A stretch of DNA of 64,000 nt from Sacculina carcini (lineage: Eukaryota > Arthropoda > Thecostraca > Sacculinidae). A program made the position numbers and the translations under genes. Within the stretch, counting starts at the first letter, position 1. Each line of letters begins with the position of its first letter. Under the pieces are notes generated by a model, which saw only the letters and a program-made list of their open reading frames with translations, had not been told where the DNA came from and did no database searches. The stretch lies in NCBI GenBank assembly GCA_916048095.2, contig OU696577.1:3699501-3763500 (forward strand). Direction: 5' to 3'. Below are positions 4,085-62,640 of this stretch, piece by piece.

Positions 4085-4730
4085 GTTATACGTTTTAACT
4101 AGTCCCTTTCTTCCCCTCCGTTGCTTTCTGATAGTGTGCCTCAGGGCTCTATTCTTGGTTCTCTCCTTTTCAATCTGTATATGTCTTCTCTTTGCCCTAT
4201 TCTACGTAAATTCCCCAATTCATACTGTAATAGATTAGTGCAGGATATTGTGTATGAATGATTATTTTGTATGAGCGTGAGTGAAGGTGCTGTATGTGTA
4301 TATGAGCGTGCGTTTGATTGATGGATGGTCCGGTTTGCTGACTGGGCGTGCCACGTGGTGGCGTCATGTTTCGGCAGTCGTTGTGTGAGCGTCGTAGAGT
4401 GTTTGTCGGTGTGCGGTGTCTTGTGGGCGCGCGTGGGGCTTCAATGCCCCCGCGCGCCCGTCTTTTAATACATCTTGTTTATGTTCATTATGTTTGCTTT
4501 GACAAGTTAACCGGCCTGTAACACATACCATATCTACGCTGATGATCTGCAACTATACATTCCGTTATCAAAATTATCTTATAATCCGCTCTCAAAGTAA
4601 TTTTGCGGCATCACATCATGGGCATCATCCCACCAGCTCATCATCAACCACTCTAGAACCGAATACATGGTTTTCCATCCTCCAAGAATCTCTCCCCCGT
4701 CTCTCTCTGTCTCCCTATCAGCTTGTGATC
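4085..4730 (+). pseudogene. LINE reverse transcriptase fragment (CR1/L2-like), split by an LTR insertion
   Basis: Translated in shifting frames, 4130-4225 gives the RT motif VPQGSILGSLLFNLYMSSLC, and 4529-4560 gives YADDLQLYI, the catalytic YADD box. The text between them is an LTR-derived insertion with a CATAC duplication. The wording closely matches the LINE at 27,146-31,528 (same PQGSILG and YADDLQLY boxes), so both belong to one family. Only the middle of the RT is kept. Confidence 0.75.
4226..4523 (+). mobile_element. LTR plus primer-binding-site stub of a gypsy-type element
   Basis: The insertion is flanked by the 5-bp duplication CATAC (4221-4225 and 4524-4528). It starts TGTAATAG. 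A GC hairpin (GGGCGCGCGTGGGGC / GCCCCCGCGCGCCC, 4425-4459) matches the one in the LTR of the element at 5,686-8,157. The LTR seems to end at TTTGACA (4504). Next comes AGTTAACCGGCC (4505-4516), 11 of 12 bases identical to the primer site of element 3 (26,195-26,206), then TGTAACA directly before the TSD. So this is not a plain solo LTR but an LTR-PBS unit with nearly everything else missing. If TGTAACA is instead taken as the LTR end, it is a 298-bp solo LTR. Confidence 0.7.
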
Positions 4731-5685: not shown

Positions 5686-7076
<1,391 letters not shown>

Positions 7077-7745: not shown

Positions 7746-7757
7746 GCCGAAATAGCT
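7746..7757 (-). promoter_or_regulatory. Primer-binding site complementary to the tRNA-Phe 5' end
   Basis: The minus strand reads AGCTATTTCGGC directly after the 5' LTR; the plus strand reads GCCGAAATAGCT. From memory, metazoan tRNA-Phe(GAA) begins GCCGAAATAGCTCAG, so the match is exactly nucleotides 1-12. There is no TGG (CCA-complement) site. Confidence 0.65.
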
Positions 7758-8065
7758 TGTAACAAAACCAGAAGCTAAAATATATTCCAGACAGGCGCAC
7801 GTGGGCATCACTGCCCCACGCGCGCCTACAAGACGTCACGCCACAACCACAGCTCAAACAGGACTGCTAGCTCACAGCGTGACACACGGGAGCACAAACG
7901 GACACACACTCACGCACAGTCCTCACGCACAGTCCTCACGCACACCGCCACAACCAATCAGCGGCGAGCCGGTCAATCGCTCGCCGCCGCGGGGCATGCA
8001 CACTTCATGAAACGCATACATACAAACACATCACCAAACAACGCAAACACGAGCGCAAACGCGAA

Positions 8066-8104
<39 letters not shown>

Positions 8105-8157
8105 CACAGACACTCCAACGCGCTCACACAATCTCTCTCGCTCACAATCACACCACA
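7758..8157 (-). repeat. LTR of the non-autonomous element (5' LTR on the minus strand)
   Basis: 400 bp, direct repeat of 5686-7076 with a 33-bp CA run and an additional copy of a 13-bp motif (about 7915-7940). Confidence 0.85.
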
Positions 8158-24054: not shown

Positions 24055-24068
24055 GGGGGAAGAGGAGA
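24055..24068 (+). promoter_or_regulatory. Polypurine tract of element 2
   Basis: GGGGGAAGAGGAGA directly before the TGTGG of the 3' LTR. Confidence 0.85.
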
Positions 24069-24623: not shown

Positions 24624-26194
24624 CGTGGTTTTGCCGTGTATAATAGACATTTATATGACTATTTGTGTTTATGTATAGAGTGATTCTGGAGTACTGCGCC
24701 AATTCTGGAGTACTGCGCCCCTGTGTGGTCTTCTGCTGCGGATCAACAGAGTTGTTAGAACTTGCAAGTTCCTCTGTGGTGACTTGGTTCTTGGTGATCT
24801 TTGCCATCGTCGAAAGGTTAGCAGCGTGTGCATGCTGTACAAGATCAAGCACAACGACCATCATCCGATGAGCAAGTCAATTCCTGATGATTTCGTGGCA
24901 GCAAGAAGCACACGGTTTTCATCCAAACAGCATTCCCAGTGCATGGCTCCAATTCGTTGTCGTACAAAACAATTCCAACGTTGCTTTCTTCCGGCCACTG
25001 TGTCTACTTGGAACACGTTGAAGGAGGAGGCTTTCTCGCAGAACAATTTGAACAAATTCAAGGCCAAAGTAAATGAAATGCTACTGAAAGAGCGGAATTG
25101 ACTGTTGAGTCTTATTAATTTTATATTTATTCATATTTATTGTTATTTATTCATGCTTATTGTTATTCATTTTCTATTTATTTATATTTATTCCTATTTT
25201 ACTCTCTATTTATTACTATTTATTATTTGTTGTTGTTATTTATTAAATTATACTTTTACTCAGTGTTGGCTGTTGTTGTTTATTGAATCATATTTATTGT
25301 TGTTGCTGTTTATTGAGTCATATTTATTGTTGTTGTTGTTTATTGAATCATATTTATTGTTGTTGCTGTTTATTGAATCATATTTATTGTTGTTGTTGCT
25401 TATTGAATCATATTTATTGTTGTTGCTGTTTATTGAATCATATTTATTGTTGTTGATGTTTATTGAATCATATTAATTTGTGTTGTTGTTACTTATTGAA
25501 TCATATATATATATATATATTTATTGTTGGATGTTTCTTATTGAATCATATGTATTGTTCTTGATTGTTATTTATTACTTATTTATTAATATTTATTCTT
25601 ATTTATTGATGGCTGTTATTTACTGAATCACATATTTTTTGTTGATTGTTATTATTCATTGAGGAGCGTGGGCGGAGTGACATTATGGATTGTTATCGGA
25701 TGATGGTTTATTATTTATTGTTATTTATTTATTATTTTCTTTCCAACTCTCTTTCTAGACTTATTTCTCTTCGAACTCTCTTTCTCTCTGAATCTTTTGG
25801 GCGCTTCCGGTACATGGGGCCACCTTAGGGTGGTAATAGTGCTTGCACTCTTCCCATGCTACTGGATTTGCCTGTAATTAATAATAATAATAATGATGAG
25901 GAGACACGTTGTTTGTGTATATTGTCGTTAGATGACGCTACCAGTGTGTTAGCTGATTATATGTATGTGATCAATGGGCGGGACTTAGAGGGTGCGAGAA
26001 GTAATGGGGCAGTGCGGTGGTGGAGTGTGTGGTGTTCGCGTGAGCGGTTATTGTTGCGAGCGTGGAGCGGTTTGAGCTGTTGAATTGTGAGAATTTGAAG
26101 GTGACGTTTTTATTGCATTTATTGTTTGTTTTCCATCTCATCGCATTGTTCAACCTCATTCGTATTCGGTCATCTAATACATCTCAAAACAACA
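24624..26194 (+). repeat. 5' LTR of element 3, split by a LINE 3' end
   Basis: About 358 bp of LTR without the insertion, versus 362 bp for the 3' LTR. The start has mutated from TGTGG to CGTGG and the end reads AACAACA. Confidence 0.9.
24685..25893 (+). mobile_element. LINE 3' end, family C, copy 2 (RT C-terminus plus UTR)
   Basis: It interrupts the 5' LTR with a 4-bp duplication TGAT (24681-24684 and 25894-25897). 24,690-25,101 encodes the C-terminal end of a non-LTR RT ORF in decayed frames: LGDLCHRRKVSSVCMLYKI near 24,790 and RCFLPATVSTWNTLKEEAF near 24,985. A long TTATTGTTGTTG-rich 3' UTR follows, with a tandem 'attgaatcatatttattg' unit (25,280-25,480) and a (TAA)n tail. A short direct duplication lies at 24,684-24,719 at the 5' junction. 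Confidence 0.9.
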
Positions 26195-26206
26195 AGCTAA
26201 CCGGCC
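26195..26206 (+). promoter_or_regulatory. Primer-binding site complementary to the tRNA-Ile 5' end
   Basis: AGCTAACCGGCC follows the 5' LTR without a gap. Its reverse complement GGCCGGTTAGCT equals, from memory, nucleotides 1-12 of metazoan tRNA-Ile(AAU), which begins GGCCGGTTAGCTCAG. No TGG site is present before the gag ATG at 26210. Confidence 0.65.
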
Positions 26207-26209
26207 AAA

Positions 26210-27145: not shown

Positions 27146-27355
27146 ACAACAACAACAACAACAACACATGTATTTCATATAGCGCTCTAATTATCATAGG
27201 CGCGAGGAACGGCTAGTTATAAAATGTATACAATGTGGAATTAACAAAACAGTATCGCATAAACAAAGATATAAGCAGCGATATACTATGAAGGAACAAT
27301 TGAAAATAACTATGGATAAAAAAAAAAAAATCAAACAGTTTTTCACACAATATAA

Positions 27356-30202: not shown

Positions 30203-30267
30203 AGGAAAACCATTTGATGTAAACCAGAAGATAACGGTGTGGTGGGAATATCAGCTGAAGACATTAG

Positions 30268-31413: not shown

Positions 31414-31566
31414 GGCTAATCCCTTGTCCGAACAGGGGAAGCAAACACAAGATCAACACAAAGATAAGAGGACCCACGAAAACACAACCACACACGGCGA
31501 CGACTGAAACACGACTTCAGTACAGAATGAGTATGTGAAAGTGAAGGCCATAGTGGTTGATGAGCT

Positions 31567-31600
31567 TGTGGCGAATGGCCACCAGTTAAACACAAGATTA

Positions 31601-31639
<39 letters not shown>

Positions 31640-32090
31640 CTATTACAATCAATCACTAAACAATAGCAATCATAAACACCGCGAGAACAATGATGACAAG
31701 GCAGCCTGTGAACAACGATACAGGCAACAAGATTGTCAAGGCAAGAACGCAAGATGGGTACAAAAGAATAACGCGCGCGCAAAAAGCAAGAGTGAGCCAG
31801 CCACAGAGAGTAGCCCTGTCAAGACTGTCTAGCGACTATATAAAACATCGAGTTTATATATCAAATAAGCAATGTATGCAACAATTGGTGTGTGTGTGCG
31901 TGTGCGTTTCCAGCGGTTCACTATGTACAGTTGATGTATGTGCGTATGTCGCCTGGAGCGTTTGGCTGGTATGCTGGATTCGATTTGCACGAACACTGGC
32001 ACTTGCACGTGGTAGTGATGGCTTGCAATTTGATGCTTGTGGCGATATGCGCGTGTGCCGGGAACATGCACATCCGGTGCAGACGCCACA
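31567..32090 (-). repeat. 3' LTR (minus strand) of the CsRn1-like element
   Basis: 524 bp, containing a (CA)n run at 31,602-31,635 that is much shorter (about 10 bp) in the other LTR. Confidence 0.95.
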
Positions 32091-32105
32091 GGAGCCCCCT
32101 CCCCA
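32091..32105 (-). promoter_or_regulatory. Polypurine tract of the CsRn1-like element
   Basis: The minus strand reads TGGGGAGGGGGCTCC immediately before the LTR start TGTGGCG. Confidence 0.8.
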
Positions 32106-32230
32106 GATTAAGGTGAGAAACGCACCGGGGGGCGAACAACTCGCCCGGACCGTGTACGACGAACCGGAGTGTTTGTCACGGGCGATGCTTGAACCAGATG
32201 TTGGGTGGTGTCTGCAGGAAGACTGATTGT

Positions 32231-33757
32231 TTAGTTCTCCAAAAATGCTGGTTTCAGTCGGTCCACACAAATAGTGTCTTCAGCGTTACGTTCCACCGTG
32301 AAAGTCTTTGGGGTGCGCTTGATGACTCGATATGGGCCACTGTAGACTGGCTGCAGAGGACGGCGATGGCCGCCGTTGCGCACGAAGACGTACTCAGCTG
32401 AGTCGAGTGCTGGCAGAGTGAACGCGTCGGTCGAAGATTTTGGTCGGCTCTGTACAGGTCGGATCATTTTGAAATGCTGGGACAGCTCTTGCGCGACCTG
32501 GTAAGGTGGCACATCATGATGTTCACGAAACATCTCACCTGGTAGCCGTAATGCAGTGCCGAACACGAGCTGAGCTGATGAGCACTGCAGTGGCTCCTTG
32601 ATGCAGGAACGTATACCCATCAGCACGATGGGTAGTCGGTCGACCCAGTTCTGGCAGCCTCGCAGCGCTCCTTTTAATTGCCGATGTAGGCGTTCGATGA
32701 GTCCATTGGCGCCGGGGTTGTAGGCAGTTGTATGGAATGAGTCTGCGCCCAGTCGTGGTGTGAGATGGTGCCACAGCCGGCTGGTAAACTGCGAACCCCT
32801 GTCAGAGACGATAGTTTCCGGAACACCATACCTGGATATCCATGTGCTGATGAGACAACGAGCCACGGTATCTGCAGAAATATCTGGCATGGGACAAGCC
32901 TCTGGCCACCTGGTAAATCTATAGATGATTGTCAGTAGATAAGTTTGGCAGCAAGGCAAAGGTCGAACAATATCGATGTGTATCTTCTGAAACCTGCCAG
33001 ATGGTAGACTGAATTGACCAGGGGGCGAGTGATTGTGTCGCGAAATTTTGCATTTTTGGCAATGTATGCATTGTGAAACCCAGTGCGATATGTCGCGTCG
33101 CATAGAGGGCCACACGAACCGGTCAGATATGAGTTTCTGAGTGGCTCTCCTACCAGGGTGAGATAACCCGTGAAAAGCATTAAACACTTGCCGGCGTAAT
33201 GCTTTCGGCACGATGGGCCGGGCTGTACCTGTGGAATCGTCACAGATTATTCTGGCAGTGGCGTGTGTAGGCAGTGGTTTCATGACAATATTCAGGGATG
33301 TGTTGTTACCTCCTGTTAATTCTTGCAGTTCGGCGTCGCTTGATTGGTGTGTCGAAATTTCTAGGAGGTCGATTTGGCTGTGGACGCTAGCCACTCTGGA
33401 TAATGCGTCGGAAACGACGTTTTCTGTTCCCCTGATGTGCTGAACGTTGGTAGTAAACTGTAAAATATAATCGAGGTGGCGCTGCTCGCGTGGTGAATGA
33501 TTTGATGTTGTCGACCTGACAGCATGCACAAGTGGTTTATGGTCCGTGACAAGGACAAACTCGCGGCCTTCGACGAATGGTCGAAAATGGCGTACAGCCA
33601 TATATGCTGCCAATAATTCGCGACCAAATGCGCTGTATTTTTGTTGCGCTGTGGACAACTTTTGAGACCAGAATGCAAGCGGTTTCCACCTACCGCGCTG
33701 CAGTTGCTGTAGAACGCAACCAAATGCCGTAGTTGCTGACGTCGGCGAACACGCCAA
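32231..33757 (-). pseudogene. pol: RNase H and integrase of the CsRn1-like element
   Basis: An open frame of 508 codons in a different frame from the RT; a 1-nt shift near 33,740, in the DAS-type start of RNase H, separates them. RNase H: FGCVLQQLQRGRWKPLAFWS, GRELLAAYMAVRHF, TDHKPLVHAV, VVSDALSRVA. Integrase: zinc module (GLSHPGRRATQKL, then CIHCQKC), triad in IHIDIVRP, VSDRGSQFTS and Glu in NGLIERLHRQLK, and a C-terminal module ending VDRLKPAFLEN. All catalytic residues are kept, so only a few lesions inactivate this copy. Confidence 0.9.
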
Positions 33758-35205
33758 GCTGTGCGTGAGGATCTTGATGGCTCAGTACGGCGGTGTCGCA
33801 TACTTTCTTTTTGGCCGCGGCGAATGATTCGTCTGCCTCCTGCGTCCACTGGAGCGGCGCCTTCGAACGACGGTGCTTGTGATCGAGCAGGCGGTGCAGC
33901 GGCCCCAAGGTTTCAGCGACGTGGGGCAAAAATCGGTGGTAGAAATTGATCATCCCCAGGAAGCGTCGGAGTTGCTCCTGCGTCTGCGGTTTTTCAAAGT
34001 TATGAATGGCAACAACTTTCTCACTCAGTGGGTTGATTCCTTTGGCGGAGATGTTATGGCCAAGAAATTTGAGCTGTGTAGCACCAAACACACATTTCGT
34101 TGGATTTACGCGGATGCCAAATTGGTCCAAGCGTTGAAAAACTGTTTCGATGTGTTTTAGATGCTGATCAGGGTATTTACTGGCAATCAGTATGTCGTCA
34201 ATATATGTGAATACAAACGGCAAACCTCGTAGTACGGTGTCCATCAGTCGCTGCATGGTCTGAGCGCTGTTGCGCAGGCCGAACGGCATCCTCGTCATTT
34301 CAAACAGGCCGAACGGTGTGCTGATGGCCGTTTTATGCACATCGTCAGGATGCATCGGTACCTGAAAATACGCCTTCACCAGGTCTATCGTTGAAAATAT
34401 TGAAGTGTCATGTAATGCAGCGGAAAAGTCATGCAAGTAAGGCAGAGGGTATCGGTCCGCCACTGTGATCCTATTGAGTGCGCGGTAGTCGCCGCATGGA
34501 CGCCACTCGCCAGGGGCGGACTTAGGCACCATGTGTAGTGCACTTGCGTACTGACTCTGGCAGGGTCGAACGATACCATGTGTGAGCATGTTCTGAAACC
34601 CACGTTTTGCGATGTCCAGTCTGGCGGCATCAAGTCGGCGCGGTCGACAATACACTGGCTGGCCGGTGGTCTCAATGCGGTGGTACACACCATGACGCTG
34701 TTCACCGCCGATGATCGGCGAGGAAGTCAATCGGGGGTATTTAGCCAGCAACTGTTGAAATCGACAGTTTGAATTGGCGAGACAGAGCGATATTTGTGGA
34801 GATGCATGTGGCTTTTTGCTGCTCACCGTGAGATTGGTCTGATTGTCTATAATCTGCCGCAGACGAGGATTGACGCTGATTTTGTGGTACGCCAAAAAAT
34901 CGCACCCGATGATGGAGATATCTATATCTGCGAGAATGAACGACCACAAGAAATTGCGACGGAGGCCGAGAGACACGGTTATGTCTTTGATGCCGAAAGT
35001 ATTGACACGGCTATTGTTGACCGCCTGTAAAACCAGCGGGGGTGGCTGCTGCGACGAATTATACGATATCAAACTATATTGTGCGCCAGTATCGATTAAG
35101 AAACTGATACCGGTGTTATTGTCGCGTATGAAGAACGGCGTGTTTTTGTGGCCAGTATATGCAGCGGTGAGAAATGAACCTGGCTCTTCACTTCTCAGTG
35201 CTAGT
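33690..35205 (-). pseudogene. pol: Protease and reverse transcriptase of the CsRn1-like element
   Basis: The frame is entered from gag by a -1 shift at 35204-35210 (the open frame itself starts at 35273). Protease: SFLIDTGAQYSLIS (about 35,085-35,125). RT: HMVPKSAPGEWRPCGDYRAL (34,510), TIDLVKAYFQVPMHP (34,390), MPFGLRNSAQTMQRLMDTVL (34,270), YIDDILIASK (34,200) with the intact catalytic box, and LKFLGHNISAKGI (34,065). The RNase H start (GVFADVSN) is broken by a frameshift. Together with the RNase H-integrase frame this gives a standard Ty3/gypsy pol. Confidence 0.92.
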
Positions 35206-35210
35206 TTAAA
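35169..35210 (-). promoter_or_regulatory. -1 ribosomal frameshift signal at the gag-pol junction
   Basis: The slippery heptamer T TTA AAC (35204-35210) is in the gag frame and is followed at once by the gag stop TAG (35201-35203). After a 7-nt spacer, GAGAAGTGAA (35187-35196) pairs with TTCATTTCTC (35169-35178), ten pairs with one G-U and an 8-nt loop. Pol is in the -1 frame. All three classical parts are present; activity is inferred. Confidence 0.8.
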
Positions 35211-36026
35211 TGAAAACTGCATGGTTTGATACATGTTCTGGCTTTGTTCCCGAATTTCTCGTGGTACCAACACATACCTGCGGTGGAGTCTTGGCGCGAT
35301 GTGAGTTCTCGTGACTGGGAACGCCTCTGTTCACTTGAGACCGAACGAGAGCGGCGGTGTGGTTCGATCGAGAGCCGTCTTAGGTGGCGCTGAATGTCGT
35401 CCAGCTGAAGTTTCAAGGCCGCCAGTTCGTTCGCGGTGATCGTGCATTGTGTGCAGCTCTGATCTGAAATTGCATTCGAGCTGGTTGTGTTGCGTGGCCT
35501 TTCACTCACCGTGCTAATGATTGATCGTTCATGAGGGAGTGATGAAACTACTCGATCTGCGGTTTCTGCCAGTGTATCCAGGGGTGTGCTTGGAGGTAGA
35601 AACTGCAAGAAAGGTGTTGCTGACTCGGGCATTGCCTGCAAGAAAATCTGCCTTATGAGTACAGATTCACCGTCCTGCACGTATGGCGATGTTTGTTCTC
35701 GCAGATGCCTGTGACAACTGTGTTGGTTTACGGCCCCCGAGGGTGGCGAGCACTGACCTGAGCTTTTCCGCCACTGATTTGTCGAGTCGCGATTGCAGGG
35801 CTGCGCACAGCTGAGTGTAGCAGTCAGCTGGAGGATTGCGGATCAGATCAACAAACTCCATGACGTGATGGGCTGGCAGTAGAGATGCTGCTGTCTGGAA
35901 CATAGTCTCCTGGTCGATGATTTGTGCCCGTTTGAAATACAAGTCAAGTTAAATAATCCAGATGTTTGAATTATCCTCAACGAAGGGCGGAGGTGGGCCG
36001 ACAATAGCGGGTTTATCGGAAGACAT
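35201..36026 (-). pseudogene. gag: gag of the CsRn1-like element
   Basis: ATG at 36026 (SSDKPAIVGPPPPFVEDNSN), an in-frame TAA at 35949-35951, then LDLYFKRAQIIDQETMF and NPPADCYTQLCAALQSRL. A frameshift near 35,675 leads to QIFLQAMPESATPFLQFLPP and a basic Arg/Ser stretch. The terminal Cys/His module is CWYHEKFGNKARTCIKPC (about 35,210-35,265). This C-x2-H-x8-C-x3-C form replaces the CCHC knuckle in the CsRn1 lineage. The TAA is one C-to-T change from CAA. Confidence 0.85.
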
Positions 36027-36271
36027 TGTGTAAAACAAGACAAGGAAATTGAAATGACAATAACGAACAGCAAAAAAACAAAACCAAAAACTTGATAACG
36101 AAAGACTCTAACTACCAACGCAATTGAATGCGTCAAGTAAGCTGAAAATAAGTCAAACAACGAAATTTGCGAACAGCAAAGGTTAACAATCCTGTAAAGA
36201 ACAAGTTATCACTAGTCAAGAAAAAACCTGTGAAGAAATAAATTACAACAATAAACGTGTCCAAAAAACAA

Positions 36272-36281
36272 GGGGTCACCA
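36272..36281 (-). promoter_or_regulatory. Primer-binding site (tRNA-Trp type)
   Basis: The minus strand reads TGGTGACCCC two bases after the 5' LTR, complementary to a tRNA 3' end GGGGTCACCA, which is that of tRNA-Trp. CsRn1-group elements are known to use this primer. Confidence 0.8.
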
Positions 36282-36283
36282 CT

Positions 36284-36785
36284 TGTGGCGAATGGCTACC
36301 AGTTAAACACAAGATTAATACACACACACAAAATCTATTACAATCAATCACTAAACAATAGCAATCATAAACACCGCGAGAACAATGATGACAAGGCAGC
36401 CTGTGAACAAGGATACAGGCAACAAGATTGTCAAGGCAAGAACGCAAGATGGGTACAAAAGAATAACATGCGCGCAAAAAGCAAGAGTGAGCCAGCCACA
36501 GAGAGTAGCCCTGTCAAGACTGTCTAGCGACTATATATAACATCGAGTTAATATATCAAATAAGCAATGTATGCAACAATTGGTGTGTGTGTGCGTGTGC
36601 GTTTCCGGCGGTTCACTATGTACAGTTGATGTATGTGCGTATGTCGCCTGGAGCGTTTGGCTGGTATGCTGGATTCAATTTGCACGAACACTGTCACTTG
36701 CACGTGGTAGTGATGGCTTGCAATTTGATGCTTGTGGCGATATGCGCGTGTGCCGGGAACATGCACATCCGGTGCAGACGCCACA
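36284..36785 (-). repeat. 5' LTR (minus strand) of the CsRn1-like element
   Basis: 502 bp, followed on the plus strand by the AGCT target duplication and the resumed protease of element 3. Confidence 0.95.
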
Positions 36786-38281
36786 AGCTTGTTATCAACA
36801 TTGATATTGTGGTTGGAATGGATTTGATCAATCATTTGGGTGGAGTGACTGTGAGTAAGAAATCTGTTAGATTCGGACAACAGTCATGTTGTGCAATGGA
36901 GATGAAGTGTGACGGCGTGCCAGTACCAAATGTGCGTGAGAAAAACAGTAGAAATGATGGTCCGCGAAATCTTACCATCGAGGATCCTAATTTTCGTGCG
37001 TCGTTTGATGGTTAAAGGTGGGAAGTCGAATGGTTAACGAAATTGCAGAATCCGGTACTATCAAAGAAAATTGGTTGTTACGAGAGGACACTTGATGATG
37101 CTGTGAGGGAAGAATTTGATGCAGAGGTGCGTAGGTGGGTTGGCGAGAAGATTTTGGTGCCTTGGACGGGTACGCAAAATGTGGGTGTATTGCCATTGTT
37201 AGCGGTCGTTCAACCTACCAAGAACAAAGTTAGGCCAGTATTGGACTTCCGCGAGCTTAACTCTTTTTTGCACAGTCACACTGGAGATGATTTTATTGAT
37301 GTATGCGGGGAAAAGTTAAGAGAATGGAGACGTATTGAAGGACCAGTATCGATCGTGGATTTGAAGGCTGCGTATCTCCAGGTTCACGTAGCAGAAAAAT
37401 TGTGGAAACACCAATTAGTGAAATATGATGGAAATATCTACTGTCTGACTAGAATGGGGTTTGGGCTGTGTTCTGCATCTAAAGCCATGACCCGAATTGT
37501 GCGTACGTTCCTACAGCAAGCGTCACTGGTTGAAGAATCAACGGATTCGTATATAGACGATATCGTTGTCCGAGAGTCGATAGTGTCAGATGCAGCGGTA
37601 GTTGACCATCTAGCCAAGTATGGGCTGAAATCCAAAGAACCGGTGCCGATTGAGCAAAGTGCTGTTCTTGGGTTGCAACTGCAAAAGAGCGAGCAGGGGC
37701 ACTTGGTGTACCGCAGAGGGAACGTAGTACCTGCCGTACCGGACGATATGACAAAACGCCAATTGTTCTCACTTTGTGGCAAGTTGATCGGCCACTACCC
37801 CGTCGCCGGATGGCTGAAGCCCGCTTGCAGCTACCTCAAGCGTCATGCTGATTGTGTTGAGTGGGATGATGTTGTAGGGGATAACGTGCTGCGTATGACA
37901 AAAGATATGGTTGAGAGTGTGATAGCGAATGACCCAGTGTGGGGAACATGGCATGTTCGAAAAACTAATGACGGTGTTGTATGGTGTGACGCCAGCATGC
38001 TTGCCATTGGTGCAGCGACAGAAATTGACGGAAATATAGTCGAGGACGCATCGTGGCAGAGGAAAAAGGAAGATGTGCATCACATCAATGTTGCAGAATT
38101 AGAAGCTGTGTTGAAAGGAGTGAATCTGGCAGTGAAATGGAAGCTGGAGGAAATAGAGATTCGGATAGATTCCGCTACAGTAGCTGGGTGGGTCGGTATA
38201 CTGTTGACTAAAGAAAGAAGAGTTAGAGACCAAGGGTGCAGCCGAAATCCTCGTGAAACGACGGTTAGGTATACTGAGTGA
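36786..38281 (+). pseudogene. pol: pol of element 3: protease end, reverse transcriptase, RNase H
   Basis: Protease resumes with VINIDIVVGMDLINHLGGV. A TAA (37013-37015) interrupts the connector. RT: VRPVLDFRELNSFLHSHTG (37,220), VDLKAAYLQVHV (37,360), CLTRMGFGLCSASKAM (37,443) and YIDDIVV (37,549). RNase H: VVWCDASMLAIGAATE (37,980), INVAELEAVLKGVNLAV (38,085), IRIDSATVAGWVG (38,160). A 1-nt insertion near 38,225 ends the frame. The RNase H wording is the same as in element 4, fixing the relationship. Confidence 0.9.
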
Positions 38282-39407
38282 CTTGATTTCGGAGCTGGGA
38301 TTGAGAGTTAGTGTGACCAGTGTTCCAACGACAACAAATAAAGCGGATATACTAAGTCGCGTTAAAAAGCAGTGGCTAGGATTGCCGGCGGTGCTGTCGA
38401 GAAATACGTCGCGCTGTCCTGAAGCTAACGTGAATGTGTGCATGACATCTGTGAACGACGTGAGAGAAATGCACAACATGCATCACATGGGAGTTTACCG
38501 CACATTATTCTTGGCACGACAGGTGTATCGCGAGAAGTTGTCCGGCGGGTTGTGCGAGGGTGTCAACGATGCCAATCGATCGACCCAGCGCCCGCGGTTC
38601 ATACACCAGGCCATCTGAACCTAAGTGAGCCTTGGCGAAGATTGGCAATTGATGTGCCACACTATCGTGGCCGTGAATATTTGTCTATGGTGGTGCGGTC
38701 CTGGCATGTTCGCAGTCTGGCGTGAACTTCGTAATGACACAGCTGAACAGGTTTGCAAGAATATTGATGAAGTGTTTCGTGAGAGAGGACCCGTATGTGA
38801 ATTACTCATGGACAATAGCAGTGTGTTTCGGTCTCAACAAATTCAGCAGCTGATGAGGCGGTGGAAAATCATGCCATTTTATCGCGCTGCACACCGCCCA
38901 AGCGGCAATGGTATCGTCGAGCGCCACCACCGCACCATAAAAGCGCTTGCTGAGAGAGCACAGGTACCACCAACAACGGCCGAGTTTTGGTACAATGTGT
39001 CACCCAGAGTCGGTGTGGAGCCCACGTCTATTCCTCATCGTAATATGCATAACTATGAGTGGCGGCATCCATGCATAGAGACTACATCAGAGAGCAACCA
39101 AGAGAGATGTTCGGTGGAAATTGGTGAAGAAGTCTGGGTGAAGCCGGCGGACGGACGGTGCACTTCACAATGGAACAGGGGTACCGTGACTGGTGTTCAG
39201 TCGTGGAATAATGTGTCGGTTGATGGTATTCCACGTCATGTTTTGGATATACGTCCTGTTGTTGTTGAGTCGATCGGCGAAGCTGAAGACGAAGATCAAG
39301 GTGTCGGAGGTGAACAGGTTGACCATGAGCCGGGAAGTGATCGACTTCCTCGTCGGTCCGGAAGAGAAAGGCGGGCTCATGTGTGGATGTGCGACTACAC
39401 GGCGTAG
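38253..39407 (+). pseudogene. pol: Integrase of element 3
   Basis: RNase H tail (NKADILSRVKKQWLG), then the integrase zinc region (MHHMGVYRTLFLARQVYREK, RCQSIDPAP type) in shifting frames, and three further frame changes near 38,560-38,640 before the last open frame 38,625-39,407. Catalytic parts: IDVPHYRGREYL (38,655), MDNSSVFRSQ (38,808) and Glu in PSGNGIVERHHR (38,898-38,935). C-terminus: EEVWVKPADGRCTSQWNRG and VDGIPRHVLDIRP, as in element 4. The frame ends TAG just before the LTR. Confidence 0.85.
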
Positions 39408-39420
39408 TGATCTTTAGATC

Positions 39421-39429
39421 AAGGGGAGG
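39421..39429 (+). promoter_or_regulatory. Polypurine tract of element 3
   Basis: AAGGGGAGG immediately before the TGTGG of the 3' LTR. Confidence 0.8.
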
Positions 39430-39791
39430 TGTGGTTTTGCCGTGTAGACACTTTGTTTATATGACTATTTGTGTTTATGTATAGAGTGATGAGGAGACAC
39501 GTTGTTTGTGTATATTGTCGTTAGATGACGCTACCAGTGTGTTAGCTGATTATATGTATGTGATCAATGGGCGGGACTTAGAGGGTGCGAGGAGAAGTAA
39601 TGAGGCAGTGCGGTGGTGGAGTGTGTGGTGTGAGCGTGGAGCGGTTATTGTTGCGAGCGAGGAGCGGTTTGAGCTGTTGAATTGTGAGAATTTGCAGGTG
39701 ACGTTTTTATTGCATTTATTGTTTGTTTTCCATCGCATCGCATTGTTCAACCTCATTCGTATTCGGTCATCTAATATATCTCAAAACCACA
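39430..39791 (+). repeat. 3' LTR of element 3
   Basis: 362 bp, TGTGG...ACCACA, followed by the GATTC duplication. Confidence 0.95.
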
Positions 39792-55198: not shown

Positions 55199-56194
55199 GG
55201 AATTATTACTCATACTCAGTGCCGCCAATCATAAAATCAAATCCAAATTTTCTTCGTAGAATAAAAACAACTATAGCGGTAACTGTATTTACAGACCAGA
55301 CACTTTACGAGACTTGGCCCTTGCAAATTTGGTGATCAATTTGTCAAAGTCGCTGATTGGTTTTACTGTAGTTTACCGTGATGAAGAAATATGTAATATA
55401 TATATCATACTTTTTTTGTTTTATACCTGACTCAAAAAACTTATATTCCTTATATATTCACCGAAATTATTCAAGCCTGGGCCCTTTTTTGAGGCGCCCT
55501 AAAATGCGGAGAGCCCTGGGCAGGTGCCCTCTTTGCCCCCCCCCCCCCCTAAATCCGGCCCTGTCTTCAGCGTAAAGTCGATTCGCTTGCGCATCTGATC
55601 TGACATTGTATTTAGTTTCTGTATTGCGTTTTCAACTTGTGAACAAACCGATAGTGATGTGTGGTGTGCTCGTGCCAAGCGACAAAAAAAGATAACTGAA
55701 CACGATAAAGTCTCTGCAACCGAGCACAACGCCTGGAACACCAACGCAGAAAGATGCTCCATACAATCGTTTCATCGCACTAACACTTGAAACATTCCAC
55801 TGTCTAAGTTTACCAACAACAAATTTGCAGTTGAGGAGCTTTGCAACTTTGCAGTTCTTCTGCTTATTCTGGGGGACCTGTCGATTATACCTTTATATCA
55901 ACACTTATCCGATAGGTCACCTGACCTGTCATAGTAGCGAGACTGTGTTTTTATGATTATACAACATTTTTCTTGTGTGTATCCTCTGAAGCAATTGCAA
56001 ATAAGCAATTGCAATCCGTCGCAGACAAACAACAGCTGACGACCTTAAGACACCATAAACTCACTTCCAGAAAGACGAATTGCTAATTTGATTTCCGAAC
56101 CGAATCAAACAATTTCCCAAACGGCCCATGTTGAAGTCAGTAGAATTCACGTACAATCGCAAATAAATGTGTCTACTCAAGAATTGCACACACT
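55199..56194. other. Mostly unrecognised DNA with one hAT-like terminal repeat
   Basis: On the minus strand from 55,563, CAGGGCCGGATTTAGGGGG followed by a G run resembles a hAT terminal inverted repeat; its partner was not found. A minus-strand ORF 55,499-55,762 (start MEHLSALVFQALCSV, later SDQMRKRIDFTLKT) runs into this repeat. It has no recognised domain and could be a short exon or chance. Confidence 0.4.
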
Positions 56195-56580
56195 GTATAT
56201 ACAGCCGAAATGTACAATATGTACAGTATACTGTAATGTACAGCCGAAATGTACAATATGTACAATATAATTTAATGTACAGCCGAAATGTACAATATGT
56301 ACAATATACTGTAATGTACAGCCGAAATGTACAATATGTACAATATACTGTAATGTACAGCCGAAATGTACAATATGTACAATATACTGTAATGTACAGC
56401 CGAAATGTACAATATGTACAATATACTGTAATGTACAGCCGAAATGTACAATATGTACAATACACCGTAATGTAAAGCCGAAATGTACAATATGTACAAT
56501 ATACTGTAATGTACAGCCGAAATGTACAATATGTACAATATACTGTAATGTACAGCCAAATGTACAATATGTACAATATA
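56195..56580. repeat. 39-bp tandem repeat array, first part
   Basis: About ten units of TGTACAGCCGAAATGTACAA followed by TATGTACAATATACTGTAA, period 39 bp, rich in TGTACA palindromes. The open frames in all phases (CTYCTFRLYITVY and the like) are by-products of a period divisible by three. Confidence 0.95.
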
Positions 56581-57270
56581 ACAAAGTTATAATCAGACTA
56601 GTTTTCTATCTATCAGTTCACTCGGTTTTCTTTCTCTTTGTCAGTTTACGTTCGCGTTCTTTCGCGGCTTGCTTGTGCAGCTGTCGTTAGGCTAATTTAT
56701 GTGTTAGGGCGACGCCAGTATTACACGGCGTCTGATATGTTTGGCAACGTGTGAAGTATGTGTGACAGTAATTAATGACCCTTTTTTGTACGTCTGACTT
56801 GGCTGATCATCTCGAGGCAGCACGCCTGTGTACTGTCAGATCGCGTTTAGAAATAGCTTGTGTCCCGGTTGTGTAGTTCGAGCAGTTTGGCCAGTTGGCA
56901 ATTGCTTGCGAAATATGGTGCCAACGACGTGTGTTCGTAGGTATATAAACCGGGCTTTACTAAGAATAGGGGGCTTGGTGGCTGTGCTTGGTGGCGGTGC
57001 TTGGTGGTTGTTTTAGTTTGACTTGCGACGTAGGACTTGCCACTCACCCAGGCAGACAGTTTTGAAGTCGTCATTAGAGGATTAGGTTCATGACTTATTA
57101 TGTTATATGAGTAGATTTGACTGGTTGCCCTGAATACACAATTCAACTTCGACTGGGTGACTATTACTTGTTATCGCGGAACACAACATCAAGAGGAACT
57201 ATCAAGACATCACGATCAGCCGAACGAAGATCAACATAACAACATATTATTATTATTAACATCGTTACAT
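56581..57270. mobile_element. 690-bp insertion inside the 39-bp array (class unknown)
   Basis: Flanked on both sides by ACAATATA (56573-56580 and 57271-57278), which fits an 8-bp target duplication, though the array itself repeats this word. It starts ACAAAGTTATAATCAG and ends ATCGTTACAT. It contains promoter-like and LTR-like text but no ORF with a domain. The ends are not clear TIRs or TG...CA. Confidence 0.5.
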
Positions 57271-57455
57271 ACAATATACTGTAATGTACAGCCGAAATGT
57301 ACAATATGTACAGTATACTGTAATGTACAGCCGAAATGTACAATATGTACAATATACCGTAATGTACAGCCGAAATGTACAATATGTACAATATACTGTA
57401 ATGTACAGCCGAAATGTACAATATGTAAAGTATACTGTAATGTACAGCCGAAAGT
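57271..57455. repeat. 39-bp tandem repeat array, second part
   Basis: Five further units, continuing the array after the insertion. Confidence 0.95.
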
Positions 57456-57700
57456 GTGCAAATTGAGATACAAATGTTAATACCATCTCAACAGAGTTCA
57501 GAATTCCTCAAATAACAAAATCTAATCAACGGTAATGCCACTTGAACACTTGGTATATGAGCACAAACAGTAAAAATCAGCATATTAGATTCTTACGGAA
57601 AGTAAAAGCTTGCTTCTTCATGGAAGACTCGATATGAAGGTAAAAAGTGCAATAACAAAACCAGTTGTCATTGATAAATCATGTTGTTTAATTATATATT
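57456..57700. other. Spacer, nothing recognised
   Basis: AT-rich. The last five bases ATATT are the target duplication of element 4. Confidence 0.6.
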
Positions 57701-58000
57701 TGTAGTATGTGTATGCATGTGTGTGTGTGTGTGTGCATTGGTGCATGCATGGTGTGTGTGCATCATCTGGCTGTGCAACATGAGCTCACTGTTGCTGGGA
57801 TGTATGTGCGCGTGCAGCAGTTGACTGGTGTATAATTCCAGGTATGTCCTGTCCTTGCAAGTGTGATCGGTGATGACGCATGGTTCGTTGCTGGTGTGTA
57901 ATGTCGTGTGAGTGTGGGTGAGTTGGTTGTAGGTTGTCGTTGTGTGTGGTCGTTGTGTCTGAATAAAGTGTTTTTGCGTTGTGCTCGTGCGTCTTTTACA
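57701..58000 (+). repeat. 5' LTR of element 4
   Basis: TGTAGTATG...CTTTTACA, with a short GT run at 57,719-57,735 and an AATAAA signal at 57962-57967. Confidence 0.98.
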
Positions 58001-58012
58001 AGCTATTTCGGC
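58001..58012 (+). promoter_or_regulatory. Primer-binding site complementary to the tRNA-Phe 5' end
   Basis: AGCTATTTCGGC directly after the LTR. The reverse complement GCCGAAATAGCT equals nucleotides 1-12 of metazoan tRNA-Phe (from memory). The match stops exactly at the LTR edge. No TGG site exists before the gag ATG at 58029. Confidence 0.7.
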
Positions 58013-58028
58013 TTCAAGTATTTTTGAG

Positions 58029-58769
58029 ATGCTCTCTTCAGCTGCAGTGAAGTGCGATGGGGCACATTTTGATGCCCGGTTGGTAGAGGAGTTTAACGGC
58101 ACCAGTGATGTGGTGGAGTGGTTCACCAGAGCCGAGAAATTGTGTGAAATGAGGGGTGTGTCAGTCTTGTCAATTGTGCCGCTGCGACTTACTGGCGGTG
58201 CTTTCGCTGTGTGGTCGCAGCTTCCTCAAGAGAAGCGGAGCGACCTTGCTGCTTTCAGAAGGGCATTGTATGATGCGTTTGCTCTGGATGAACACGCTGC
58301 CTACGAAGTCTTCACGAAGCGGAAGTTGAAGTGTGGCGAAGTACCGGATGTGTTCCTCGCAGATCTGCGAAGGCTGGCTGCTTTGTTTGGCGGTGTACCA
58401 GATCGAACCTTGTTGTGTGCTTTTGTCGCGGGCTTGCCAGATTCCGTTAGGCAAACGATCCGCGCGGGTGCCAGAGCTGAGTGTCTATCTGTTGAAGACG
58501 TCCTCGTTAGAGCTCGTATGGTCCTGAGCGACCAGAAAGTCACAGAGACAGCTGCCAGAATATGCTGTGGCGCTGCTGTTGTCAGGGACAATGAGAGAAG
58601 TGATACAGCTGCTGTCCGAGCGTCACGGACCTTGGGACAGCGAGAGCAGCGTAGACCCATATATTGTTGGAGTTGCGGAGCACGAGGACACATTGCCAGG
58701 CTGTGCCCGGTTCAGGGAAACGGATTGGGGAGCGGTGCGTCGGCACCGGCATCCGCTCCCAGACACTGA
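58029..58769 (+). CDS. gag: Gag of element 4
   Basis: 246 residues. The ATG at 58029 is the first after the primer site. The capsid-like region has DVVEWFTRAEKLCEMRGV (residues 25-42) and RALYDAFALDEHAAYEVFTK (near 80-100). The C-terminal nucleocapsid part has one CCHC knuckle, CWSCGARGHIARLC (residues 213-226). It is the structural protein that assembles the particle and binds the RNA. The last 55 bases overlap pol in the -1 frame, with the slippery site 49 bases before the stop. Intact, unlike gag of element 3. The single knuckle differs from the two in element 3. Confidence 0.9.
   Translation: MLSSAAVKCDGAHFDARLVEEFNGTSDVVEWFTRAEKLCEMRGVSVLSIVPLRLTGGAFAVWSQLPQEKRSDLAAFRRALYDAFALDEHAAYEVFTKRKLKCGEVPDVFLADLRRLAALFGGVPDRTLLCAFVAGLPDSVRQTIRAGARAECLSVEDVLVRARMVLSDQKVTETAARICCGAAVVRDNERSDTAAVRASRTLGQREQRRPIYCWSCGARGHIARLCPVQGNGLGSGASAPASAPRH
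58715..58760 (+). promoter_or_regulatory. -1 ribosomal frameshift signal of element 4
   Basis: The heptamer G GGA AAC (58715-58721) is in the gag frame. After a 6-nt spacer (58722-58727), GGGAGCGG (58728-58735) pairs with CCGCTCCC (58753-58760). TGC/GCA extends the stem across one bulged T, leaving a 10-nt loop. Pol is open in the -1 frame. GGGAAAC is a known retroviral slippery type. All parts are seen; function is inferred. Confidence 0.85.
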
Positions 58770-61700
58770 ATATATGCACAGGTGCACTGCCAATTGTGAA
58801 GCTCCGCGTCAACGGTCGAATGTGTCAGTGTCTTGTCGACACAGGTTGCACTGACACTTTGGTGTGTCGAAGTCGATGTCGGCGATGGAAGCCTGAACGT
58901 GTCAGTTTGACAACATTGAGCGGCAGCAAATTTGTGTGTGAAGGCACTGGTTTAATTGAAGTGTGTTCAAGTGATGGCGGTAAGGTGCGATTGAAAGCGT
59001 TGGTGGTTTCTAGACCGTTGTTAGGCGTCGATGTCATCCTTGGAATGTCTGGCATTTCGGCTTTGGGCGGAGTTATCGTGACTTCGAATCATGATATCAC
59101 TTTAGGTGGAACACTTGGATGTGCCATGACTAATGATGCTTCCGACAGTTTGGTGGAAGGAGAAAAGCACCGAAGTCAGAAGGTTGTTGGCGATGTGAGA
59201 CAGGATCGTTGTGAATCTGGAACGCTGCCGGATGTTGAGACGGCTGACTTCAGAGTCCACTTTAATTCCTCGAAGGCGAAATGGACCGTTGGTTGGAAGT
59301 GGGCAAATGATGTTGTGCCAGTGGTCCTGAAGAACACCACGGATATGTACGGAATGAGTGCTCCCGTCCACGAAAAATTCAACTCTGAATTGAACACGTG
59401 GATAGACCGAGGCTGGCTCATTCCACATGATCGTGTCAAGCATGGCGATCCCCGTGGCTTGGTGCCGTTGATGGCAGTTGAGCAACGTGATGGTACACGG
59501 GTTCGTCCCGTGCTGGATTTCAGAGAGCTGAATGGCTACCTCTCTCCACACACTGCGGACGCAGAAGTGTGCGCGGATCAAACAAGGAAATGGCGGCGCC
59601 ACGGAAGCAACGTTGCAGTTGTGGACCTGAAGAGCGCTTATTTGCAAGTGCACGTGGAACCGCGCCTGTGGACCTATCAGACCGTTGAAGTGAATGGCTG
59701 TAGGTATTGTCTGACCAGGCTCGGCTTTGGTCTCAGCATCGCTCCATTAGTGATGAAGTTGATCGTCCAAACTGTTCTGGAGCGCAACGCCACAATGAAA
59801 GGAGCCGTTTTGCCGTATGTGGACGACCTGCTGGTTGATGAGAACAGAGTCAAAGCGGAGCAAGTTGTCGAGCATTCCCGTCGTCATGGGCTCGAATGTA
59901 AGTCGCCTCAGAGAGTTGCTGACGGCGCTAGGCTCCTCGGGCTGAAGGTGCAATCATGTAAGGGCGTTGCACAATGGAAACGCGATGCTGCCATCCCAGC
60001 TGTTCCGAGCAGAATCACGAGACGAGCTGTGTTCTCTTGGTGTGGACGCCTCATTGCTCACTTACCCGTTTGCGGGTGGATGCGTCCAGCTGCAGCCTGG
60101 CTGAAAAGGCGCGCCAATGAGCTCTCTAGAGCATGGGATGATGTCATTCAGGATGATTCCTTGGCTGCTCAGCTGGCATGGACTCATGATCGCGCTGTGA
60201 GCGATGACCCCGCTCATGGAGAGTGGTCCGTTGACGGTGATAAAGCAGTTGTTTGGACTGATGCCAGCTCTTTGGCCACAGGTGTAGTGCTACAGTCTCT
60301 CAACGGCACGACAATCGAAGATGCCAGCTGGCTGCGCCGTGACGAATCAGCACACATCAACCTGGCGGAGCTGGACGCAGTTGTGCGAGGTCTGAACATG
60401 GCTGTCGTCTGGGATTTCAAATGCATCGAACTGAAGACCGACTCGGCTACTGTGTATAGCTGGGTGTCGGATGCACTATGTGGTAAGGCTCGCCTCCGAA
60501 CAAAAGCCAACGGTGAGATGCTGATTCGCCGTCGCGTGGACCTAATATTTCAGCTCAAACGAGAGCTGTCCTTGGATTTGACAGTGAGCTTGGTGCGATC
60601 GCATGATAACATTGCTGATCTGGTGACCAGAGTGCCGCAGAGTTGGCTTCGTGGTGCAAATGCGAGAATCCAAGCTGTTTGCGCGGCCGGTGCTCGTGGC
60701 GCCTGCAATCGCGCCTTTCTTCTAAACGAATGTGTAGAAGATGCTATCACGAATGTTCATGTGGAAGCAGGACACCCTGGAGTCCGGCGAACGTTGTATT
60801 TCTCAAAGCGTCGCCGCTTGAACGTGACAAGGCGCCAAGTGCAGCAGGTTGTTTCTGCGTGTCAGATTTGTCAGTCGATCGACCCGGCCCCAGTCAAATG
60901 GAGACGCGGCGATTTGAGTGTGTCAGAACTGTGGCAGAGAGTCGCTGTTGACGTGACGCATTTCAAGGGACACGTGTATCTCACCATCATTGACTGTGGA
61001 CCATCGAGATTTGCGTTGTGGCGACACCTGCCTGCTGAGTCGACCAATCACGTTGTTCGAGAATTGGACGCAGTCTTCTTCGAACGCGGTGCTCCACGTG
61101 AAATACTTTCAGACAACGGCACGGTTTTCCGCAGTCGCGAGTTCGCTGCGTTCGCTGCCAGGTGGAGCGTTCCTCTGAGGTATCGTTGTGCCTATCAACC
61201 ATCTGGCAATGGTATCGTGGAGCGGTGTCACCGCAGCATAAAAACCACAGCAGCGAGAAAGCAATGTTCGGTGCAGGAGGCTGTGTACATTTATAACATC
61301 TCACCAAAAGATGATGTTAGATCCACCACAGCTCCGGCTAACATCATTCATGGCTACACAGTACGTGTGAGGAACATTGACCCTGAGCCCGATGTGGAAG
61401 CGAACGAGGTGAGGTGTCGCTACCAAGTGGGTGATGAGGTGTGGGTAAAACCCGCCGACGCGCGCTGCGCCAGCAGGTATTCACAAGGAGTTGTCACGGC
61501 AATCATCTCTGAACAAGCTGTGGATGTTGACGGCATGACGAGACACGTTCGGGATCTACGATTTAGAGGTCGCCCAGGTGTTCGCAGAGTTGCCAACAAC
61601 TTAGCTGTTCAAGAGGAGCTGACAGTGCCGTCGCAGAATCCAGCTCAGGCGAGTGACGAACTGATGGTTTGTTCTGTTGCGGATCAGCGACTTCAGCGTG

Positions 61701-61843
61701 ATGATACGTCGCCGCCAGCATCAGATGAACAGCAGGAGGCTGTCGTGGACGGACTCATCGGGAGTGAGATCAACGAGGGCGGCCCAAGAACATCGATCCG
61801 GACTCGCAGGCCACCTGCGTGGTTGAGCAGTTATGAGCAGTGA
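58721..61843 (+). CDS. pol: Pol of element 4: protease, RT, RNase H, integrase
   Basis: The frame is open from 58664 (1,059 codons) and is reached from gag by the -1 shift. With residues counted from 58664: protease LVDTGCTDTLV (57-67); RT RPVLDFRELNGYL, VDLKSAYLQVHV, CLTRLGFGLSIAP and YVDDLLV (385-391); RNase H VVWTDASSLATG (about 528), LAELDAVVRG, KTDSATVYSW and HDNIADLVTR; integrase zinc module (HVEAGHPGVRRTLYF, then CQICQ, about 698-742), triad in VDVTHFKG (about 762), SDNGTVFRS (about 815) and Glu in NGIVERCHRS (about 850-860). The C-terminal module EVWVKPADARCASRYSQG is shared with element 3. No stop or frameshift is seen, and every catalytic residue is present. Confidence 0.95.
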   Translation, partial: RIGERCVGTGIRSQTLNICTGALPIVKLRVNGRMCQCLVDTGCTDTLVCRSRCRRWKPERVSLTTLSGSKFVCEGTGLIEVCSSDGGKVRLKALVVSRPLLGVDVILGMSGISALGGVIVTSNHDITLGGTLGCAMTNDASDSLVEGEKHRSQKVVGDVRQDRCESGTLPDVETADFRVHFNSSKAKWTVGWKWANDVVPVVLKNTTDMYGMSAPVHEKFNSELNTWIDRGWLIPHDRVKHGDPRGLVPLMAVEQRDGTRVRPVLDFRELNGYLSPHTADAEVCADQTRKWRRHGSNVAVVDLKSAYLQVHVEPRLWTYQTVEVNGCRYCLTRLGFGLSIAPLVMKLIVQTVLERNATMKGAVLPYVDDLLVDENRVKAEQVVEHSRRHGLECKSPQRVADGARLLGLKVQSCKGVAQWKRDAAIPAVPSRITRRAVFSWCGRLIAHLPVCGWMRPAAAWLKRRANELSRAWDDVIQDDSLAAQLAWTHDRAVSDDPAHGEWSVDGDKAVVWTDASSLATGVVLQSLNGTTIEDASWLRRDESAHINLAELDAVVRGLNMAVVWDFKCIELKTDSATVYSWVSDALCGKARLRTKANGEMLIRRRVDLIFQLKRELSLDLTVSLVRSHDNIADLVTRVPQSWLRGANARIQAVCAAGARGACNRAFLLNECVEDAITNVHVEAGHPGVRRTLYFSKRRRLNVTRRQVQQVVSACQICQSIDPAPVKWRRGDLSVSELWQRVAVDVTHFKGHVYLTIIDCGPSRFALWRHLPAESTNHVVRELDAVFFERGAPREILSDNGTVFRSREFAAFAARWSVPLRYRCAYQPSGNGIVERCHRSIKTTAARKQCSVQEAVYIYNISPKDDVRSTTAPANIIHGYTVRVRNIDPEPDVEANEVRCRYQVGDEVWVKPADARCASRYSQGVVTAIISEQAVDVDGMTRHVRDLRFRGRPGVRRVANNLAVQEELTVPSQNPAQASDELMVCSVADQRLQRDDTSPPASDEQQEAVVDGLIGSEINEGGPRTSIRTRRPPAWLSSYEQ

Positions 61844-61882: not shown

Positions 61883-61891
61883 AGGGGGAAG
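61883..61891 (+). promoter_or_regulatory. Polypurine tract of element 4
   Basis: AGGGGGAAG directly before the TGTAG of the 3' LTR. Confidence 0.85.
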
Positions 61892-62191
61892 TGTAGTATG
61901 TGTATGCATGTGTGTGTGTGTGTGTGCATTGGTGCATGCATGGTGTGTGTGCATCATCTGGCTGTGCAACATGAGCTCACTGTTGCTGGGATGTATGTGC
62001 GCGTGCAGCAGTTGACTGGTGTATAATTCCAGGTATGTCCTGTCCATGCAAGGGTGATCGGTGATGACGCATGGTTCGTTGCTGGTGTGTAATGTCGTGT
62101 GAGTGTGGGTGAGTTGGTTGTAGGTTGTCGTTGTGTGTGGTCGTTGTGTCTGAATAAAGTGTTTTTGCGTTGTGCTCGTGCGTCTTTTACA
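61892..62191 (+). repeat. 3' LTR of element 4
   Basis: 300 bp, two substitutions relative to the 5' LTR (in the block after 'atgtcctgtcc'). Confidence 0.98.
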
Positions 62192-62640
62192 ATATTGTTA
62201 TCGGTATTTGAATGTGACGTGCAACACTTTTTGAGCTGATGCTCTGCATATTTGAGCCGATGATATTTGCTATTCATAAATAGACAGCATATACTACAAT
62301 TAGATTACTTATTAAGATATACTACAATTAGATTACAGAGCATATACTACAATTAGATTTTCCTTCAATTGAATATAGTTATTGCTGTTTTGTCTGCGCA
62401 TTTCATTACATTGCATTTTATTTTAGAGGCATGAAAATCTTATGCGTGTGAGTTTTCAATTTTCAATGTTAAGCTGGATGAAAATCGCCTCTAAAAACCA
62501 TAGACTGCCATGAAAAGGAGTATGGATCAATGACTACGACTAAAAGACATTAATTTCGCCGATGTTCACGGCGTCCTGTCGCGAATAGACGCGCAAATAA
62601 TACGCTACAACCTAAAAAGCCTCTGGCGTATTTGCATATA
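62192..62640. other. Non-coding DNA with a short tandem repeat
   Basis: Three copies of 'atatactacaattagatt' at 62,288-62,358 (spacing about 28 bp). Nothing else recognised. Confidence 0.6.

Follow-up and report, generated by a model that had tools for sequence, protein, structure and literature searches.

Short 5'-terminal fragments of host tRNAs, cut in the D-arm, probably prime the DUF7047-type LTR retrotransposons described here. The first 12 nucleotides of mature tRNA-Phe, or of tRNA-Ile(AAT) in other members, would pair with a 12-base site that touches the 5' LTR. If the tRNA were cut in the D-arm, at U12 or beside it, a 3' end would be left that could be extended into U5, giving the start of the minus strand, and plus-strand synthesis would then copy the fragment up to the natural 5' end of the tRNA. 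Because copying would run to the tRNA 5' end, the site would be fixed at 12 bases and could be switched between tRNAs. From the comparisons below we infer that an RNA acts as the primer, that the cut lies in the D-arm and that tRNA-Phe is the second tRNA used in this species.

Element 4 and its family

The window, which is the whole stretch of DNA analysed (G000:C9:3699501-3763500, 64 kb), belongs to a genome of 264 Mb in 43 contigs, whose tRNA genes, where read, look like those of animals. It contains element 4, a complete and recent LTR retrotransposon with an LTR pair, a target site duplication, a polypurine tract and pol domains:

57696..57700, no strand: target site duplication ATATT, left copy (flank comparison)
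57701..58000, + strand: 5' LTR, TGTAGT...TTTACA, 300 bp (LTR pair comparison)
58001..58012, + strand: putative primer-binding site AGCTATTTCGGC, the complement of animal tRNA-Phe nucleotides 1-12, adjoining the 5' LTR
58029..58769, + strand: gag-like frame that matches a CCHC zinc knuckle (first ATG chosen by eye)
58664..61843, + strand: pol frame (Pfam profile matches)
61883..61891, + strand: polypurine tract AGGGGGAAG adjoining the 3' LTR (by eye)
61892..62191, + strand: 3' LTR (LTR pair comparison)
62192..62196, no strand: target site duplication ATATT, right copy (flank comparison)

The two LTRs are identical at 298 of 300 positions, with 2 differences. The CCHC match in the gag-like frame, around which the mechanical ORF spans 57981-58769, lies below the Pfam cut-off (19.2 bits against 20.8, E 0.0013). 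In pol, the RT, DUF7047, RNase H (RVT_3), H2C2 and rve matches exceed their Pfam cut-offs and the protease matches fall below theirs. To the left of the element, arrays of a 39-bp repeat with GCCGAAAT, at 56192-56580 and 57270-57461, flank about 700 bp of other DNA.

The original prediction read the 12 bases correctly, as they directly adjoin the 300-bp LTR, and it was also right that no TGG site follows, TGG being absent from the LTR end and from the following bases up to 58036. The leader has a predicted stability lower than that of all 200 shuffles; an unstable leader would suit an open site, and proves nothing.

Further members of the family were collected by LTR and not by site. The query, consisting of the element 4 LTR and 116 bases, gave at least 45 genome matches (40 of 116 candidates scored), from which 30 loci were cut out. 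With identical contexts counted once, these yielded 26 distinct LTR-end contexts. The 12-mer is exact in 13 of the 16 contexts of 5' LTRs and carries one change in the other three. It follows none of the 10 3' LTRs, where the adjacent bases show 8-11 mismatches to it. Two loci, L021 and L028, are shortened copies of element 4 in which, by eye, the internal bases end right after the 12-base site and are followed by bases from further downstream.

Sites matching two tRNA 5' ends

The site had been described for a single element. Instead, exact sites of two types total 2212 in the genome and occur in many LTR families. The Phe-type 15-mer ACAAGCTATTTCGGC has 924 + 920 = 1844 genome matches, with a chance expectation of about 0.5 (arithmetic, at equal base frequencies), and ACAAGCTAACCGGCC, which is ACA plus the Ile-type site, has 368. 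The reversed controls gave 0 in both cases, and a chance origin of the sites is rejected on these counts.

A second exact Phe-type site lies in the window itself, in a small element (5686-8113) that has no large coding frame of its own and an LTR with no match to the element 4 LTR:

7746..7757, - strand: second exact Phe-type site of the window, adjoining the small element's 5' LTR (sequence match)
7758..8113, - strand: 5' LTR of the small element, with an approximate outer end
5686..6028, - strand: 3' LTR of the small element, its inner end continuing into a repeat

Self-matches offset in steps of 8 mark an array in its interior, about 1.1 kb long, whose period is 8 bases or a multiple's fraction.

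From the 1844 matches, 30 loci were cut out. Fifty exact Phe-type sites with enough flank, drawn from both locus sets and the window (some being counted twice, in the window and in a locus), form 12 clusters on the LTR side and 15 on the internal side. Few elements showed both LTRs, and the LTR status of the upstream side is otherwise judged from its ACA ending and its position.

The Ile-type site was found in a second large element of the window, and in a one-off form elsewhere:

25894..26194, + strand: 5' LTR of the second large element (Ile-type), 96% identical to its partner LTR
26195..26206, + strand: putative primer-binding site AGCTAACCGGCC, the complement of nucleotides 1-12 of the genome's tRNA-Ile(AAT)
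37043..38281, + strand: RT-DUF7047-RNase H frame of the Ile-type element (profile matches)
38625..39407, + strand: integrase piece of the Ile-type element (rve, below the Pfam cut-off)
39487..39791, + strand: 3' LTR of the Ile-type element (LTR pair comparison)
4505..4516, + strand: Ile-type site with one change, AGTTAACCGGCC, preceded by the LTR-like end TTTGACA

No matching pair of target duplications was seen for the Ile-type element (25894-39791), and a Gypsy element (LTRs 31625-32090 and 36320-36785) sits between its LTRs.

The identity of the second tRNA comes from the genome. The sequence GGCCGGTTAGCTC occurs at 14 places, against 18 for the reversed control, and all 14 were read. Ten are intact, identical tRNA-Ile(AAT) genes that start at the G of that sequence, and four are LTR-like ends in ACG followed by the Ile-type site. 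The Ile-type site is therefore the exact complement of nucleotides 1-12 of the genome's own tRNA-Ile(AAT). Since the site changes with the tRNA whilst keeping the same length and the same tRNA position, the unforeseen Ile case lends the strongest support to the earlier view that the site complements a tRNA 5' end and not a 3' end. By eye, at least five different LTR ends precede the Ile-type site in the window, in L082 and in the eight loci cut out of the 368 matches.

The Phe assignment is less direct. The 12-mer complements nucleotides 1-12 of animal tRNA-Phe, and the assignment rests on the known animal sequence, since searches of the assembly with patterns and with a whole-tRNA query yielded no complete tRNA-Phe gene; the Ile assignment is free of this weakness. 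The original identification of tRNA-Phe thus stands as a fit to the known animal sequence, whereas a tRNA-Phe of this genome starting GCCGAAATAGCT was not confirmed. In the genome, the 5' part of tRNA-Phe had 0 matches, both as a gapped pattern and with up to 3 mismatches, as did the D-arm-to-anticodon pattern with up to 3 mismatches. The 3' end pattern with up to 3 mismatches matched one place, a piece in L061, and the whole 73-base query matched two 3' pieces only, in L061 and L062, both from nucleotide 38. One of these pieces is found immediately beyond an LTR that bears a Phe-type site, and the other is enclosed by the two arms of an inverted repeat of 174 bp. There are 15 genome places with GCCGAAATAGCTC, with 0 tRNA genes among them. 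The tRNA family search scored 63 of 15013 candidates and is not a census, and the missing complete gene may be unassembled or truly different. By text search, the 12-mer occurs in two Drosophila papers; the passages seen from one of them concern tRNA-Phe and do not include the 12-mer.

An information profile was drawn from representatives of the 12 Phe-type LTR-side clusters and seven Ile-type loci, L123 and L128 being excluded as near repeats. After base 12 the information declines from 2 bits, with maxima of 0.5 (Phe) and 0.4 (Ile) in the next two positions and of 0.7 and 1.0 bits, respectively, in later single columns. The 12-mer plus ACA was the search key for nearly all profiled sites, and the flanks were not part of the key. 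Because the bases past position 12 are unrelated between representatives, the conserved unit ends at the base that would pair with tRNA nucleotide 1. All carriers beyond the element-4 family and the window were gathered through the exact site itself, so that the rarity of site-less members is not demonstrated by them. Among the cases not selected by site, the 12-mer is exact in 13/16 of the element-4 family and in 2/2 of the DUF7047 elements of the window.

Putative priming from the site and its alternatives

The position of the site relative to the LTR bears on its function. Both LTRs could be seen next to the site in four elements, three of them in the window (element 4, the small one and the Ile-type one) and the fourth being the small element in L062; in all four the repeat stops at the base that precedes the 12-mer. 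A further locus, L081, combines a U3 (190 bases, 97%) and an internal part (998 bases, 98.7%) matching L068 with 103 bases, ending exactly at the site, that match the small-element family best (92% to L066). It is a natural recombinant that switched family exactly at the site, as transferred strong-stop DNA would leave it; it is a single recombinant locus of 30, and further similarity exists between the two parent LTRs (85% over 87 bases). These observations weigh against the 12-mer being a tRNA-binding or packaging element with priming achieved otherwise, for example by an undetected RNA. For Phe, some other small RNA ending in the 12 bases is conceivable, but the start of the minus strand sets the LTR end, the repeat stops just before the 12-mer in the four elements, and the two site types fit two tRNA 5' ends exactly, in addition to the switch in L081. 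Such a role is therefore regarded as improbable.

That ordinary priming from a tRNA 3' end was overlooked can hardly be credited. A Gypsy element of the window (19678-24245) does have an ordinary TGG site, TGGTGTCAGAAG, after 19854, and TGG triplets occur further downstream in several representatives of the site carriers, mostly within a start ATGG. At the LTR end itself, however, TGG is present in 0/12 Phe-type and 0/7 Ile-type representatives, and nothing is conserved past base 12. Most Ty3/gypsy elements and retroviruses likewise have a site after the 5' LTR, use a host tRNA and can switch primers, but they use the CCA end, whereas the sites here complement nucleotides 1-12. Nor were sites found that complement a tRNA stretch ending at the anticodon: the Ile-type site corresponds to nucleotides 1-12, and the Phe-type site does likewise by the known animal tRNA-Phe sequence.

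Self-priming of the Tf1 type, in which the site would pair with the element's own 5' end, is very improbable. In the available passages on Tf1 and sushi, the primer is very short (11 bases, close to the length of the present site) and ends at the end of the duplex, where RNase H cuts the site-paired RNA (PMC7175516); it derives from the element's own transcript, whereas the putative primer here is a host tRNA and the LTR ends tested contain no complement. When the 300 bases upstream of the site were examined at 13 Phe-type ends, the best complement covered 6-8 of the 12 bases, against shuffled means of 7.0-7.6, and self-priming is rejected for this interval, the complements being no better than shuffles. 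In the Ile-type LTR the best self-complement is 8, a value without a shuffle of its own. Moreover, one 12-mer is common to families with different LTRs.

Many integrases trim two bases from the ends of the DNA. The primer might accordingly end at G10, with AG as a two-base spacer that integrase removes and everything else as in the D-arm model, and AG does stand directly before the TG of the 3' LTR in both large elements. This variant is rated unlikely, as AG also complements C11 U12 of both tRNAs and so needs no separate reason. Because both tRNAs have C11 U12, primer ends at U12 and at G10 look the same at the level of sequence.

Also on the unlikely side is a ready-made 5' tRNA fragment of 12 (or 10) nucleotides supplied by a host nuclease, for instance by RNase P cutting inside the tRNA. 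There is precedent in copia and Ty5, for which the accessible passages describe 5' tRNA fragments that arise from a cut in the anticodon region (PMC5371799, PMC10886601), with internal cleavage by RNase P stated for Ty5 (PMC5371799). In these elements, as in the plant elements Osser and Bianca and in fungal Copia lineages, the primer is likewise a 3'-truncated 5' fragment of a host tRNA, and the tRNA can change between families, as with the Phe and Ile sites here. They are, however, Ty1/copia elements with cuts in the anticodon stem or loop, whereas in the present elements the putative cut is in the D-arm and RT precedes integrase as in Gypsy. The equal length of 12 bases from two tRNAs fits a cut measured from the paired end better than a ready-made fragment; this argument is not decisive, as both tRNAs also share AGCU/CAG around nucleotide 12.

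By analogy with these systems, the simplest form of the D-arm fragment model would be a cross of Tf1-type cutting and the copia/Ty5 use of tRNA fragments, with the cut placed where the duplex ends. The chances are about even that the paired tRNA is cut by the RNase H which the element itself encodes, much as Tf1 cuts its own transcript; otherwise, a host nuclease leaving a 3'-OH would make the cut. More tentatively, a fourth priming mode can be proposed, in which the RT/RNase H of the element would invade the host tRNA from its 5' end, open the acceptor stem and cut at the end of the 12-base duplex. Any tRNA with a suitable 5' end would then be recruitable, and tRNA priming would be joined to primer cutting of the Tf1 type.

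Three types of primer are distinguished in a survey of plant elements, namely a complete tRNA, a half tRNA cut in the anticodon stem and a self-primer (PMC6317226), and a primer formed by the first 12 nucleotides of a tRNA fits none of the three as they are given in its accessible text. The original prediction suggested that priming from a D-arm cut could be new, and in the passages seen from open-access papers no description of such 5'-terminal priming was found. We call the priming novel within the tRNA-fragment type, and not the kind of element. Two reported cases come near it. The biv-TRIMs of bivalves are small LTR elements without a canonical site, and in two species the bases directly after the repeat resemble the central part of tRNA-Tyr; unlike here, the passages available do not describe a 5'-end site. 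For the Gypsy-type Tcn2-Tcn5 of Cryptococcus, possibly novel priming has been proposed, and the likeness lies in that mention alone (PMC7175516). If D-arm fragments are indeed the primers, either the host makes a D-arm cut in tRNAs or an enzyme of the element does, and copia-type and Tf1-type priming would be linked. Site finders limited to tRNA 3' ends, anticodon sites and self-primers would presumably label such elements as site-less.

Carrier proteins and further site types

The domains of element 4 follow the order RT-RNase H-integrase, which is that of Ty3/gypsy. The usual Gypsy RNase H models RT_RNaseH and RT_RNaseH_2, present in the other Gypsy elements of the window, are not matched by element 4, which has DUF7047 and RVT_3 instead. 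Compared with the RT of one of the window's Gypsy elements, its RT shows 27% identity over 169 positions, and its RT region is 42% identical over 386 aligned positions to that of the Ile-type element. In both large elements DUF7047 lies between RT and RNase H (frames 58664-61843 and 37043-38281). These are the two DUF7047 frames found when 13 of the 22 listed ORFs of at least 250 aa in the window were scanned, and both sit in site-bearing elements, one Phe and one Ile. A search for DUF7047 by name found nothing in the open-access literature. Among the best 60 of 186 solved structures, those nearest to the RT by sequence are HIV-1 RTs, a weak match (best 24.9 bits, E 7.9e-5), and 0/10 pattern matches in viral_contigs were confirmed as RT relatives.

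Open frames downstream of the site were compared between 13 locus representatives and two window elements. A Gag-like part relates seven of them to each other and a protease-like part another four, with pairs 22-51% identical, and the two sets are tied together because the RT match joins the Ile-type element of the window, in one set, to element 4, in the other. The frames of L063, L090, L066 and L062 have no relative among those compared. Between the Ile-type element and the Phe carrier L065, the Gag-like parts are 40.6% identical. On this evidence, the putative priming sites are common to widely diverged members.

Other tRNAs were sought as complements of nucleotides 1-12 of 27 tRNA 5' ends, following CA and with at most one mismatch, in the loci and the window (about 361 kb, with many loci chosen by the Phe site). 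Phe gave 37 exact and 3 one-off sites, Ile 2 exact and 1 one-off and Val 1 one-off, against 0 exact and 2-8 one-off sites in each of five shuffled libraries. In the whole genome, a pattern with the start TACAAGCTA and an end of G/C plus C matched 1847 places (reversed control, 127). Among the 100 matches listed, a hand tally of the 92 with letters comprised 66 exact and 8 one-off Phe sites, 11 exact and 1 one-off Ile sites, 3 with AGCTATCGCTGC and 3 others. The 33 matches in viral_contigs are probably due to chance, as estimated from the size of that collection.

Two loci carry both site types in tandem. In L113 (G000:C18:5588035-5588140) and L130 (G000:C6:6861186-6861266) an Ile-type site is followed by TGTAACA and then by a Phe-type site, which reads AGCCATTTCGGC in L130 and within which L113 ends. 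It is as if an old Phe site had stayed behind a newly gained Ile site. Finally, TACAAGCTATCGCTGC was seen three times among the listed pattern matches, on G000:C1 near 2.02, 2.16 and 2.18 Mb, and is possibly a third site type.
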